Part shown: positions 294-40,952 of the stretch, piece by piece
Position numbering within the stretch: the stretch's first letter is position 1
Layout of the letters: each line of letters begins with the position of its first letter
Origin: Candidatus Cloacimonadota bacterium
GTDB taxonomy: Bacteria; Cloacimonadota; Cloacimonadia; Cloacimonadales; Cloacimonadaceae
Assembly: GCA_017994635.1 (NCBI GenBank)
Contig: JAGOKK010000005.1
Coordinates: forward strand, 1-50,585
Direction: 5' to 3'
DNA: 50,585 nucleotides
Notes under the pieces: generated by a model
What the model was told of the DNA's origin: nothing
Seen by the model: the letters and a program-made list of their open reading frames with translations, nothing else
Database searches by the model: none
Program-made: the position numbers and the translations under genes

Positions 294-460
294 CCTCGCC
301 CCCTGCTGCCCCGTACTTTACCCGAACTCCACTTGAATCCCTCCTGAACTGGGTCCGGGTGGGGTTCAAGTGGGTTTCGAGAGGAGTACATCTGGTTAAT
401 GGGCAAGATGTCTGGCTCATCCTGGGAATTGTAAAATGGATGTCACGTTTTGACGTCCCG
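294..460 (+). repeat. 167-bp dispersed repeat, copy 1 (contains 77-bp palindrome)
   Basis: This stretch aligns without gaps to 39832-39998, with about 14 mismatches by eye (roughly 92 percent identity), in the same orientation. Bases 313-389 form a 77-bp quasi-palindrome starting and ending in GTAC, with long arms that include CCACTTGAA and TTCAAGTGG. Several arm differences are G-T wobble-compatible. It does not encode a plausible protein. No obvious target-site duplication flanks it. It could be a non-autonomous mobile element, a REP-like element or a structured RNA. Confidence 0.8.
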
Positions 461-488
461 TCGCTAGCTTAGCTGGATGTTTATGCTA

Positions 489-13754: not shown

Positions 13755-15236
13755 TTATATCCCCAATCCAGTCAGGAGATTTACGCTGATGCGGGCTGAT
13801 TCGTATATGGTGGGCAGCCCCGATCCAGGATGCGTACCTCCCCCCACCAGATAACAATTCTCAAGCTCTTCAAACTTGTTGCGAGGCCTGAAGTAAAGCA
13901 TCTGATCCAGGCTGTGAGCAAGATTGAAAGTTGCCCCGAAATAGACGTTGTACTTATTCTGCCAATCTGCCGGAGTGATGATCAATTCTTCTTCGATGTG
14001 TTGATCCAGATCCTCCAGAGATGGCATATGCTGCATGATCAGCTTGATTACCTGATCGCGATACCGCTGCTTTTCACGATCCCAGTTTATGCCGCTCTTA
14101 TTATTAGCAACCGGCACCAGTATATACAAGGCCGATTTGCCTTCCGGAGCCAGTGAAGGATCAAGGGCGGAGGGATTGTGCAGATAAAATGCCGTATCTT
14201 CATGTAGGGTCTTGGCATCGAAGATATCGCTCACATTCTCTTTGTATGTGGGGCTAAAGCGGATGTTATGATGCGGCAGATCCACCTTTTTGTTCACTCC
14301 CAGATACAGCATAAAAGTGGAGCAGGAATAGCCCATGGTTTTCAGCTTGGAACGATTGTATTTCTTTAGCGTACCCGGTGCAACCAGGCTGGACATGGAA
14401 TGGGCAAAGTCGGAATTGATAAAGACAGCGTCGGCAAAGAGTTCGCTGCCATCCATCATCCTCACACCCTTCACCTTTTTGCCTTCCAGAATCAGTTCCT
14501 TTACGGGACTGTCCAACATAAGCTTACCGCCATCTTCTGCGATCACTTCAGCCATCGCTTCCGAGATTCTATTTAGCCCGCCCATCACATGATAGATCCC
14601 CTCATGATGTTCTACAAAGGGAATTATGGTGAATGCTGCGGGACAATCCCAAGGAGACATACCGAGATACTTTGACTGGAAGGTGAAACTGAGCCGCAGC
14701 TTTTCGCTCTTGAAATAGTTGCCAAGTTCTCCATATAGAGATTTCCCAATGGACATGATCGGAATAGCACCCAAAAAGTGCTTGGAAACCATGCTTTGCG
14801 GAGTATGGTAGGGAATCTGTAAACAAGGCAAAAGCCTGTCATAGCGCTTCTTCTCTCGATCCACAAACTTTGCAAGTCCATCCTCTTCACCTGGGAAAAG
14901 CCTGGCCACGTCATCGCGCATATCCTTCAGATCATTCCTGATATCCAGCTCAAACTCCGGAAAGTAAAGTCGATACATAGGGTCCAGCTTGTGAGTTTGC
15001 AGATAATCCTCGGTTTTTCGTCCCACTGCGCTAAATATCTCATCGAGGATAAACTTCATCATCAAAAAAGTGGGACCAGTATCAAAACTGTAGTCACCAA
15101 GTTTTATGCGTGCGTTACGTCCACCCACCCGGTCTGCCTTTTCCAATACTGTTACGTTGTATCCTCTGTTTTGTAAGAGCATCCCGGCAGTCAATCCCCC
15201 GGGGCCGGCACCGATAATCAGAACATCCTTTTTCAT
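13755..15236 (-). CDS. phytoene desaturase family (CrtI-like) FAD oxidoreductase
   Basis: The 493-residue protein has the CrtI architecture. An N-terminal dinucleotide-binding motif (IIGAGPGGLTAGMLLQNRGY, about 6-25) leads into VTVLEKADRVGGRN. A GDYSFDTGPTFLMMK segment follows. The C-terminal signature reads YLVGGGTHPGSGLPTIYESA (about 463-482). CrtI-type enzymes desaturate phytoene or related polyprenoids; some homologues act as saturases or isomerases. No phytoene synthase, cyclase or other carotenoid gene is adjacent, so the substrate is uncertain. ATG 15236 has a purine-rich AGGAAGAGAG leader. The gene is monocistronic, with a terminator after it and a 760-base island before it. Confidence 0.85.
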   Translation of the reverse strand: MKKDVLIIGAGPGGLTAGMLLQNRGYNVTVLEKADRVGGRNARIKLGDYSFDTGPTFLMMKFILDEIFSAVGRKTEDYLQTHKLDPMYRLYFPEFELDIRNDLKDMRDDVARLFPGEEDGLAKFVDREKKRYDRLLPCLQIPYHTPQSMVSKHFLGAIPIMSIGKSLYGELGNYFKSEKLRLSFTFQSKYLGMSPWDCPAAFTIIPFVEHHEGIYHVMGGLNRISEAMAEVIAEDGGKLMLDSPVKELILEGKKVKGVRMMDGSELFADAVFINSDFAHSMSSLVAPGTLKKYNRSKLKTMGYSCSTFMLYLGVNKKVDLPHHNIRFSPTYKENVSDIFDAKTLHEDTAFYLHNPSALDPSLAPEGKSALYILVPVANNKSGINWDREKQRYRDQVIKLIMQHMPSLEDLDQHIEEELIITPADWQNKYNVYFGATFNLAHSLDQMLYFRPRNKFEELENCYLVGGGTHPGSGLPTIYESARISVNLLTGLGI

Positions 15237-15500: not shown

Positions 15501-15571
15501 GGCATCCCCCCTAATAAACGGGGAATGGTGTGGATAAACACATCAATCCTCGTTTATTAGAGGGATATGCC
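15501..15571. repeat. 71-bp near-perfect inverted repeat
   Basis: The outer arms begin GGCATCCCCCCTAATAAACG and pair with CGTTTATTAGAGGGATATGCC read backwards. An inner TGTG...CACA stem closes the apical loop. It lacks a T-tract on either strand, so it is not a standard terminator. It sits 27 bases before the third 77-bp palindrome. I found no second copy in the window. Confidence 0.7.
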
Positions 15572-15598
15572 AGACTCTATCTATCCCCCTTCTGGCCT

Positions 15599-15675
15599 GT
15601 ACTCCACGCCAAGCCCACTCGAACCCCACCCGAACTGAGTTCAGGAGGAGTCCAGGTGAGTTTCAAGTGGCGTCC
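15599..15675 (+). repeat. 77-bp quasi-palindrome, copy 3 (diverged)
   Basis: This aligns without gaps to 313-389 and 39851-39927, at roughly 70 percent identity, and has exactly the same 77-base span. The centre is GAACTGAGTTC, and the arms pair along most of their length despite sequence divergence. The similarity continues a little past the palindrome (GTTAACGGGA versus GTTAATGGG), so the forward orientation is the homologous one. Confidence 0.7.
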
Positions 15676-15865
15676 GTGGTGTTAACGGGAATGCCAATAA
15701 GGGTGTCGCAGATCAGTCGAGCTGTGGAATATGCTTGGACGTTAAATGTTTTCGGAATAGAGTAGCGCGCTGTTGGAGTGTAATATCAGAGCCCGGTATT
15801 TCATCCCTGGGGTTAACCGAATGATAAACATTATATTACGTTTGTACCAGTTTCCTCTAGCCTGG

Positions 15866-15915: not shown

Positions 15916-16082
15916 TCTTAATGCACAATCCAATCGGATAGAGCAAAGCATATTGTTATAACCATATCATATCTGCTAACAAAGTGATAGCAGCATATGT
16001 CCAAGTGCATGCTATATAGAATAATAAGTGAGGGTTTACAATCTTTCCAGCCCATCGCTCCGTCAAGCGAGAATGGAAGAAT

Positions 16083-16110
16083 TTGGCATGTGCAGAATAT
16101 CCATTATTAT
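16083..16110 (+). promoter_or_regulatory. predicted arsR-zntA promoter
   Basis: A TTGGCA (16083-16088) and a TATTAT (16105-16110), separated by 16 bases, resemble sigma-70-type -35 and -10 boxes. The predicted start would fall inside the adjacent palindromic operator, a normal geometry for repression by ArsR/SmtB proteins. Confidence 0.55.
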
Positions 16111-16127
16111 ATGAGCATATACTCATA
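16110..16127 (+). promoter_or_regulatory. ArsR/SmtB-type operator
   Basis: TATGAGCATATACTCATA is a perfect inverted repeat, with six-base arms and a six-base spacer. It closely resembles the TGAAC-N6-GTTCA-like operators known for CzrA/SmtB-class zinc sensors. It lies between the -10 box and the AGGAG ribosome-binding site (16131-16135) of the regulator gene, so binding would block the operon. Confidence 0.7.
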
Positions 16128-16140
16128 CATAGGAGAACTG

Positions 16141-16494
16141 ATGAACGAGCAATGCAAGTGCAAACAGATAGGCGACATAGAGATAGCTAACATTGTGAAG
16201 GGTCTTCCTCTCAATGAGACCATGGAACAACTGGCTGATTTCTTTAAAGTGTTCGGTGATTTCTCAAGGTTGAAGCTTATATACTTCTTGTCCAAGGCTG
16301 AACTGTGCGTGGCAGACCTCTCCACCCTTGCTGGGATGCAACAATCCGCGGTTTCTCATCAATTGAAAACTCTGCGGCTCAGTAGATTAGTGAAAACCAG
16401 AAAAGAGGGAACTGTGGTTTACTACTCTCTCGACGATCAGCACATCAAGAATCTCTTTGATCTGGCGCTGGAGCACTTGGAGGAGCGGTCATGA
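16141..16494 (+). CDS. ArsR/SmtB-family metal-sensing repressor
   Basis: This is a 117-residue winged-helix repressor that should release DNA when it binds metal. The frame is open from 15997, but ATG 16141 has AGGAG five bases upstream and gives the family length. The recognition helix is in QQSAVSHQLKTLRLSRLV (about 67-84). The alpha5 metal site is present with SmtB spacing: Asp99, His101, His112 and Glu115, equivalent to Asp104/His106/His117/Glu120 in SmtB. This points to zinc. Cys5, Cys7 and Cys56 (ELCVADL) could form an additional thiolate site. The gene overlaps the downstream ATPase (ATGA). Confidence 0.9.
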   Translation: MNEQCKCKQIGDIEIANIVKGLPLNETMEQLADFFKVFGDFSRLKLIYFLSKAELCVADLSTLAGMQQSAVSHQLKTLRLSRLVKTRKEGTVVYYSLDDQHIKNLFDLALEHLEERS

Positions 16495-38317: not shown

Positions 38318-39766
<1,449 letters not shown>

Positions 39767-39831: not shown

Positions 39832-39998
39832 CCTCGCCCCCTGCTGACCCGTACTTTACACGTAATCCACTTGAATTCCTCCTGAACTGGGTTCGGGTGG
39901 AGTTCAAGTGGGTTTCGAGTGGAGTACATCTGGTTAATGGGCCAGATGTCTGGCTCATCCTGAGATTTGTCAAATGGGTGTCACGTTTTGACATCCCG
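39832..39998 (+). repeat. 167-bp dispersed repeat, copy 2 (contains 77-bp palindrome)
   Basis: This is a same-orientation partner of 294-460, at about 92 percent identity by eye over exactly 167 bases. Similarity starts at CCTCGCCCC and stops at TCCCG. The quasi-palindrome spans 39851-39927. It lies in the gdhA-nadE spacer, leaving both genes intact. The two copies frame about 39 kb and could support homologous recombination. Confidence 0.8.
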
Positions 39999-40190
39999 GC
40001 GTCACTTCTTAGTTACGTTAAACGTGCTGGGGAAAAAAGGGTAAGGGCTAGAAGGTTTGGGTGAGAACCAATACTGAAAGCTGATCAAACTCCACCACTC
40101 AGATCTGGGCAATGTACATGATTAGTTTTCCCTTGACTCACAGTGGCTCAACTGAGAATTTGCATGCAGCTAAGATGCGGAGTTTATTAC

Positions 40191-40952
40191 ATGCGTAAGA
40201 TTGACTATAACAAAGAGATGAACAAGATATGCCGCTTTCTGAAGGATTACCTGACTTCCAGCGGCCTATCGAAGTACATCATTGGCATATCCGGCGGTAT
40301 TGATAGCGCTCTATCAGCCGCTTTAGCAGTAAAAGCGATTGGAAAAGAAAACGTAATTGGCATTATGATGCCTTACAGACTCAGCAATCCTCAGAGTTTA
40401 AAGGATGGACAAATCCTCTGTAATTATCTGGAAATTGCCCACGAAGTTATCGATATCAGCCCCATTGTGGATTCATGGTTCGCAAATAGTGAACCTGATG
40501 CAAGTCCGTTACGCCGTGGAAATTGGATGGCGCGCACACGGATGTGTGTGCTTTATGACCTTTCTGCCAAATACGGCGCACTAGTAGTTGGCACCAGCAA
40601 TCAGAGCGAATTGATGACGGGCTATTTTACTCAGTTTGGGGATTCGGCGTGTGCGTTGGAACCCATCGGCCAGCTTTACAAGACTGAGGTGTGGGAAATG
40701 TCGAAACTACTGAATATTCCCAAACAGATCATAGACAAAACCCCCAGTGCCGATCTCTGGGAGGATCAGAGCGATGAGGCAGAAATGGGAATTGGCTACT
40801 CTGATTTGGATGAGATTCTTTACGCCATACATCACATGCAAGACACCACGGTCTTTGATCCTAATAAACTAAGTACTGTGTACAAATTGATCGCCAGAAG
40901 CCAATACAAACGGATGGCGCCACCTCTACCGGAGCAACCATGTTCTCTCTAA
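40191..40952 (+). CDS. nadE: NH3-dependent NAD+ synthetase
   Basis: This enzyme amidates nicotinate adenine dinucleotide to NAD in the last biosynthetic step. The 253-residue protein has only the synthetase domain. The PP-loop is SGGIDSALSAALAV, at about 37-50. VVGTSNQSELMTGYFTQFGD and the late EDQSDEAEMGIGYSDLDEIL are characteristic. No glutaminase domain is present, so free ammonia is the likely donor. The frame opens at 40143, but ATG 40191 has GGAG eight bases upstream. Its end overlaps the next gene by 13 bases. Confidence 0.95.
   Translation: MRKIDYNKEMNKICRFLKDYLTSSGLSKYIIGISGGIDSALSAALAVKAIGKENVIGIMMPYRLSNPQSLKDGQILCNYLEIAHEVIDISPIVDSWFANSEPDASPLRRGNWMARTRMCVLYDLSAKYGALVVGTSNQSELMTGYFTQFGDSACALEPIGQLYKTEVWEMSKLLNIPKQIIDKTPSADLWEDQSDEAEMGIGYSDLDEILYAIHHMQDTTVFDPNKLSTVYKLIARSQYKRMAPPLPEQPCSL

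Follow-up and report, generated by a model that had tools for sequence, protein, structure and literature searches.

A dispersed family of long palindromes built of tandem 11-bp units in a Cloacimonadota genome

Three copies on one contig

The stretch of DNA analysed here (the window, 50,585 nucleotides) is one whole contig (C36) of the 2.12-Mb genome of a Candidatus Cloacimonadota bacterium, whose assembly comprises 149 contigs and is 92% complete. An earlier note, made from the letters of the window alone, had drawn attention to a 77-bp quasi-palindrome at three intergenic sites, and the alignment bears this out: 313-389, 15599-15675, and 39851-39927 align without gaps as three real copies, and the next-best 77-mer on the plus strand of the window reaches only 48%. 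Over 77 nt, identity is 91% between the copies at 313 and 39851, and the copy at 15599 shares 71-73% with both of them; its orientation makes little difference, since the sequence is quasi-palindromic. The note had also described one copy as only about 70% identical, with a more symmetric centre. Such a divergent copy exists (its centre is GAACTGAGTTC), but it is the one at 15599, not the one at 39851; its model score is very slightly better on the minus strand.

The length of 77 bp has to be revised. Although the copies are real, they are the middle part of a larger quasi-palindrome of 105 bp (CCC...GGG), which extends to as much as 117 bp if the outer ends are counted. Copies 1 and 3 have a stretch of 170 nt in common (294-463 and 39832-40001, 91% identity). 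In a consensus drawn from 60 copies, information extends from CCC to GGG (105 nt), continues weakly as far as TTCTTGCC and GGCAAGAA (117 nt), and is zero beyond. The palindrome is closed by CTTGCC/GGCAAG, and its end consensus, CCCCCTtgTaGCC, has a partial mirror image at the opposite end, so that there is no one-sided tag.

The core of copy 1 lies at 299-403 on the plus strand (105 nt; 293-409 with the outer ends), with the units of its left arm at 307-350, the centre at 351, and the units of its right arm at 352-395. Its long form (294-463, plus strand) consists of the palindrome and a 3' module of about 60 nt (GATGTCTGGCTCATCCTGGGAATTGTCAAA...), which is common to the copies of subfamily A, described below. 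Copy 2 (15585-15689, minus strand) has no 3' module and lies in the divergent spacer between the genes at 13755-15236 (minus strand) and 15997-16494 (plus strand). Copy 3 (39837-39941, plus strand; long form with the 3' module, 39832-40001) occupies the divergent spacer between the genes for glutamate dehydrogenase (38318-39754, minus strand) and NAD synthase (40143-40952, plus strand). As the note had proposed, the copies in the window fold along their length, and they do so better than dinucleotide shuffles (z from -1.96 to -6.65).

Other repeats are present in the same window. A separate inverted repeat directly adjoins copy 2 (15507-15564; 26-nt arms, 85% complementary, with a 6-nt loop; CCCCCTAATAAACGGGGA.../...TCCTCGTTTATTAGAGGG). 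Short repeats of a related kind lie at the contig ends (75-120 and 50128-50303, with TTTGCAGATTTCAGTGAC near the left end and TATCACGATTTCTGCAAATG near the right), and these may be the termini of an insertion sequence at which the assembly broke off.

The family in the genome and in its relatives

A covariance model built from 22 copies gives 135 matches over both strands of the genome, that is, about 68 places, and 65 distinct copies were extracted from the loci. About 65-68 copies are therefore dispersed between the genes. This supports the proposal that the palindrome is dispersed, probably mobile, and a member of no named family, and it removes the possibility, raised in the note as grounds for doubt, that only the three copies exist. 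Both ends are kept in register in 61 of 63 copies. The highest identity between copies is about 95%, and thus no very recent jump is seen. Ten copies, among them the two long ones of the window, form subfamily A, whose 3' module measures about 60-100 nt, and subfamily B has at least 11 copies with a 3' module of up to about 115 nt. No match to the palindrome was found in phage, plasmid, and viral collections, and a search of open-access literature turned up no description of it in Cloacimonadota.

By crude gene calling, 22 copies lie between divergent, 15 between tandem, and 12 between convergent genes, and 16 lie at contig edges; several contigs of the genome terminate at a copy. Four copies overlap a called ORF of 126-161 aa, but these ORFs are of doubtful reality. 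As hairpins between genes, the copies might be taken for intrinsic transcription terminators. However, the 22 copies in divergent spacers and the absence of a terminator-like site from the spacer of copy 2 speak against this function, which their location makes unlikely for most copies and to which we give almost no credence.

A second repeat family, of about 140 nt, is found near many copies (244-382 nt away in the right flank of L047, and also at L031, L038, L045, and L092), and the spacers are therefore mosaics of several repeats. An all-against-all comparison of the flanks revealed no recognisable nested insertion of the palindrome into other repeats.

The arrangement of the conserved letters can be written as a grid, CCWCYT-N5-CCWCYT-N11-ARGWGG-N5-ARGWGG. 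With at most one mismatch, this grid occurs in seven of 125 genomes of the phylum, all from one family (24 times in G000, the present genome, 15 in G066, nine in G022, four in G021, three in G013, and once each in G019 and G004); because the grid was defined after weak matches had been seen in relatives, the scan tests its extent against a reversed-pattern control, which gave zero in all 125 genomes, and is not an independent discovery. At three mismatches, the counts are 59 in G000, 24 in G066, 12 in G022, nine in G021, and nine in G013, with 0-2 in the controls, so that single matches in other genomes are not evidence. The N5 letters are genus-specific: GAACn in G000 and G004, GGGGT or GGCAT in G066 and G022, TAATT and similar in G021 and G013, and GTCAT in G019. 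Some G022 copies fit the full 117-position model without any change of length, and the arms in other genera appear to be shorter, with two or three units. The genes next to the copies in these relatives (ABC transporter, radical SAM, SRP54, glycosyltransferase, and others) include no common transposase.

The 11-bp unit and the pairing of the arms

The conserved unit is the 11-bp CCWCYTGAACn. About four such units stand head to tail in each arm, and the two arms are inverted relative to each other. Within an arm, identity is 0.58 at a lag of 11 and 0.57 at a lag of 22, whereas most other lags give about 0.2-0.3. When the units of the right arm are taken on the opposite strand, the motif fits all eight unit positions, the outer ones more loosely. 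In the central units, the two W positions that face each other are mismatched (A:A or T:T) in 45 copies and paired in 16 (n = 61). The two positions are significantly associated when all copies are taken together (Fisher p = 0.0017) but not in the ungrouped copies alone (p = 0.23), and the association is therefore partly a matter of subfamily inheritance. In the relatives, CCTCC on one arm faces CCACC on the other in 11 of 11 counted G022 copies and mostly so in G066 and G021/G013, and this facing is absent from the single G019 copy; these copies were oriented with T on the left where possible, a choice on which the per-arm counts depend and the mismatch does not. Among about 100 tandem-unit matches listed, there are no solo arms or solo arrays of units, all of the matches lying inside known palindromes, and thus no larger transposon with such ends is evident.

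The note had argued that pairing is retained while the sequence diverges, a sign of selection for structure. This argument does not hold. Among the 22 copies, 76.5% of the pair cells hold standard pairs, compared with 77.9% after the 3' letters are shuffled among copies, and 496 of 500 shuffles pair at least as well as the observed copies. With all 63 copies, the figure is 290 of 300 shuffles, and the subgroups likewise show no excess. Covarying pairs, for which the note had suggested looking with a covariance model, do not exceed shuffles: neither covariation nor surplus pairing over shuffled partners was detected in 22 and then in 63 copies, invariant pairs being uninformative. The symmetry of the palindrome is position-wise conservation of the 11-bp motif on both arms, and additional selection on pairing is undetectable. 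In dispersed repeats, then, symmetry can come from repeated binding units, here putative, instead of from selected base pairing.

These results bear directly on the idea of a structured RNA, or a transcript hairpin selected for its fold. The predicted hairpins are strong, and 11 bp is also one turn of A-form RNA, but besides the lack of covariation and of surplus pairing, C-A mismatches occur at some variable pairs about as often as G-T, the central pair is usually mismatched, and the copies, which match no bacterial RNA family in Rfam, occur in every gene orientation. We regard this explanation as improbable. Rfam miRNA matches in L214 were discarded as generic hairpin matches below the gathering score.

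Conservation at the level of the unit, not of the pair, and a spacing close to one helical turn would also suit a host DNA-binding site, in which the 11-bp units, all on one face of the helix, are read by a nucleoid-associated or regulatory protein and a role in promoters and spacers preserves the copies. The 22 of 49 classified copies that lie between divergent genes agree with this, whereas the copies in tandem and convergent spacers do not. Moreover, the sister species of the genus have only 0-2 copies, and the sharp borders and subfamily-attached 3' modules are those of copied elements. A host site is thus rather unlikely, although less so than an RNA.

Known mobile palindromes and a putative protein in trans

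For palindromes scattered over bacterial genomes, the usual explanations are RAYT transposases or parent insertion sequences, and neither fits so far. RAYT-associated REPs are defined as short palindromes (20-50 nt) tagged on one side with GTAG or CGTC (PMC8266576, PMC3733652), form GTAG and CGTC superfamilies (PMC3733652), and in group 2 have a mismatch or bulge in the stem (PMC8266576). The present family resembles the REP/REPIN elements of RAYT (TnpA-REP) systems in being dispersed, extragenic, and lineage-specific in sequence, in having no transposase inside, and in conserving a stem imperfection, namely the central W:W mismatch, as do the REPs of E. coli (PMC8266576). It differs from them in its length (105-117 bp), in its arms of tandem 11-bp units, and in the lack of both a one-sided GTAG/CGTC tag and a linked Y1 (HUH) transposase gene flanked by the repeat.

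The genome has a single Y1 transposase gene (C16:59764-60084). Its score falls exactly on the cut-off of the IS200 model and well short of the cut-off of the model for REP-associated transposases, and the repeats around it are different ones, of the GCCCCGAAGGGGC and AGCCCCGAAGGGGCG types and GTCCCATCGGGACGACATTTCAGA (L145 1150-2044). Y1 gave no match in G004, G011, and G021, which carry copies or variants, and the examined flanks of 29 Y1 loci contain no grid. With the lone Y1 gene IS200-like and amid other repeats, we rejected a RAYT/Y1 link to the palindrome, and the note's suggestion of a RAYT-type REP, mobilised by a Y1 HUH transposase, is disfavoured, being slightly less probable still than a structured RNA. 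The AGCCCCGAAGGGGCG and GTCCCATCGGGACGACATTTCAGA repeats that flank the Y1 gene look like its own REPs.

Bacterial MITEs (reviewed in PMC10969869) of the ERIC, RUP, and Correia/NEMIS type offer the other comparison. The present element is like them a short (about 100-130 bp), non-coding, multicopy element with inverted terminal repeats and many copies in spacers. Unlike them, it is palindromic along its full length, target-site duplication was not found, and the tandem-unit matches listed from this 149-contig, 92% complete assembly revealed no insertion sequence with these ends that might be its parent. On our best reading, the element is of unusual design and would work like REPs or MITEs, yet it fails tested defining features of each. 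Tandem 11-bp binding units are also found in parC-type plasmid partition sites, where they are direct repeats at one locus. This likeness serves only as a lead; the arrays of the palindrome, with their putative binding units, are inverted and dispersed over the chromosome.

The evidence on mobility comes from the distribution of the copies. The sister species of the genus mostly have 0-2 recognisable copies (one with a full score, a few weak ones, or none). The orthologous gdh-nadE spacer, which holds copy 3 in the window, was compared in the three sister species that have the two genes on a single contig: measured between matching aligned points, it is 273, 203, and 278 nt shorter there. This comparison concerns spacer lengths only, and the differences fit an insertion of the long form. 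No clean empty site was found at base resolution, as the spacers do not align between species. Flanking direct repeats are not in excess in 60 copies, the best deviation being within the chance of about 19,000 tests, and neither the Y1 search nor the genes adjoining the copies in relatives yielded a mobilising gene.

On balance, we lean towards a REP/MITE-like mobile palindrome that is non-autonomous and has, as its arms, putative tandem binding sites for a trans-acting protein; its mobility, the binding, and the co-evolution of the two partners are what we infer from sequence comparison. Each copy would be an inverted array of 11-bp units, about four per arm and one per helical turn, closed by the CTTGCC/GGCAAG ends. 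A putative transposase or recombinase supplied in trans would bind the arrays and, by copying or transfer, bring the entire element of 105-117 bp into intergenic spacers without duplicating the target. The fixed spacing of the units and the concerted change of their letters point to such a binding role. Because the units within an element are near-identical, while the letters differ between genera and the grid is fixed, array and protein have probably changed specificity together.

More tentatively, these may be a family of mobile palindromes in which tandem 11-bp recognition units all alter their letters together from genus to genus, and a putative modular DNA-binding protein, changing its specificity along with its element, may move or maintain them. 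A fixed grid with letters changing in all units provides a comparison for finding this protein, which is expected to be common to the carriers and to differ between genera in its DNA-reading part.

Some copies elsewhere in the phylum are identical in part to those of G000. Over 45 letters, the one copy in G047 and the one in G050 agree exactly with copies of G000. Contig L117, from the bin of a different Cloacimonadota MAG, matches a G000 contig at 98.4% identity for 1.5 kb, and the similarity stops where the palindrome ends on its right. The copies common to G047, G050, L117, and G000 may reflect binning contamination or transfer. Beyond the palindrome edge (L117 1598 / L053), the sequences are unrelated, a break that may be a rearrangement or an assembly effect.
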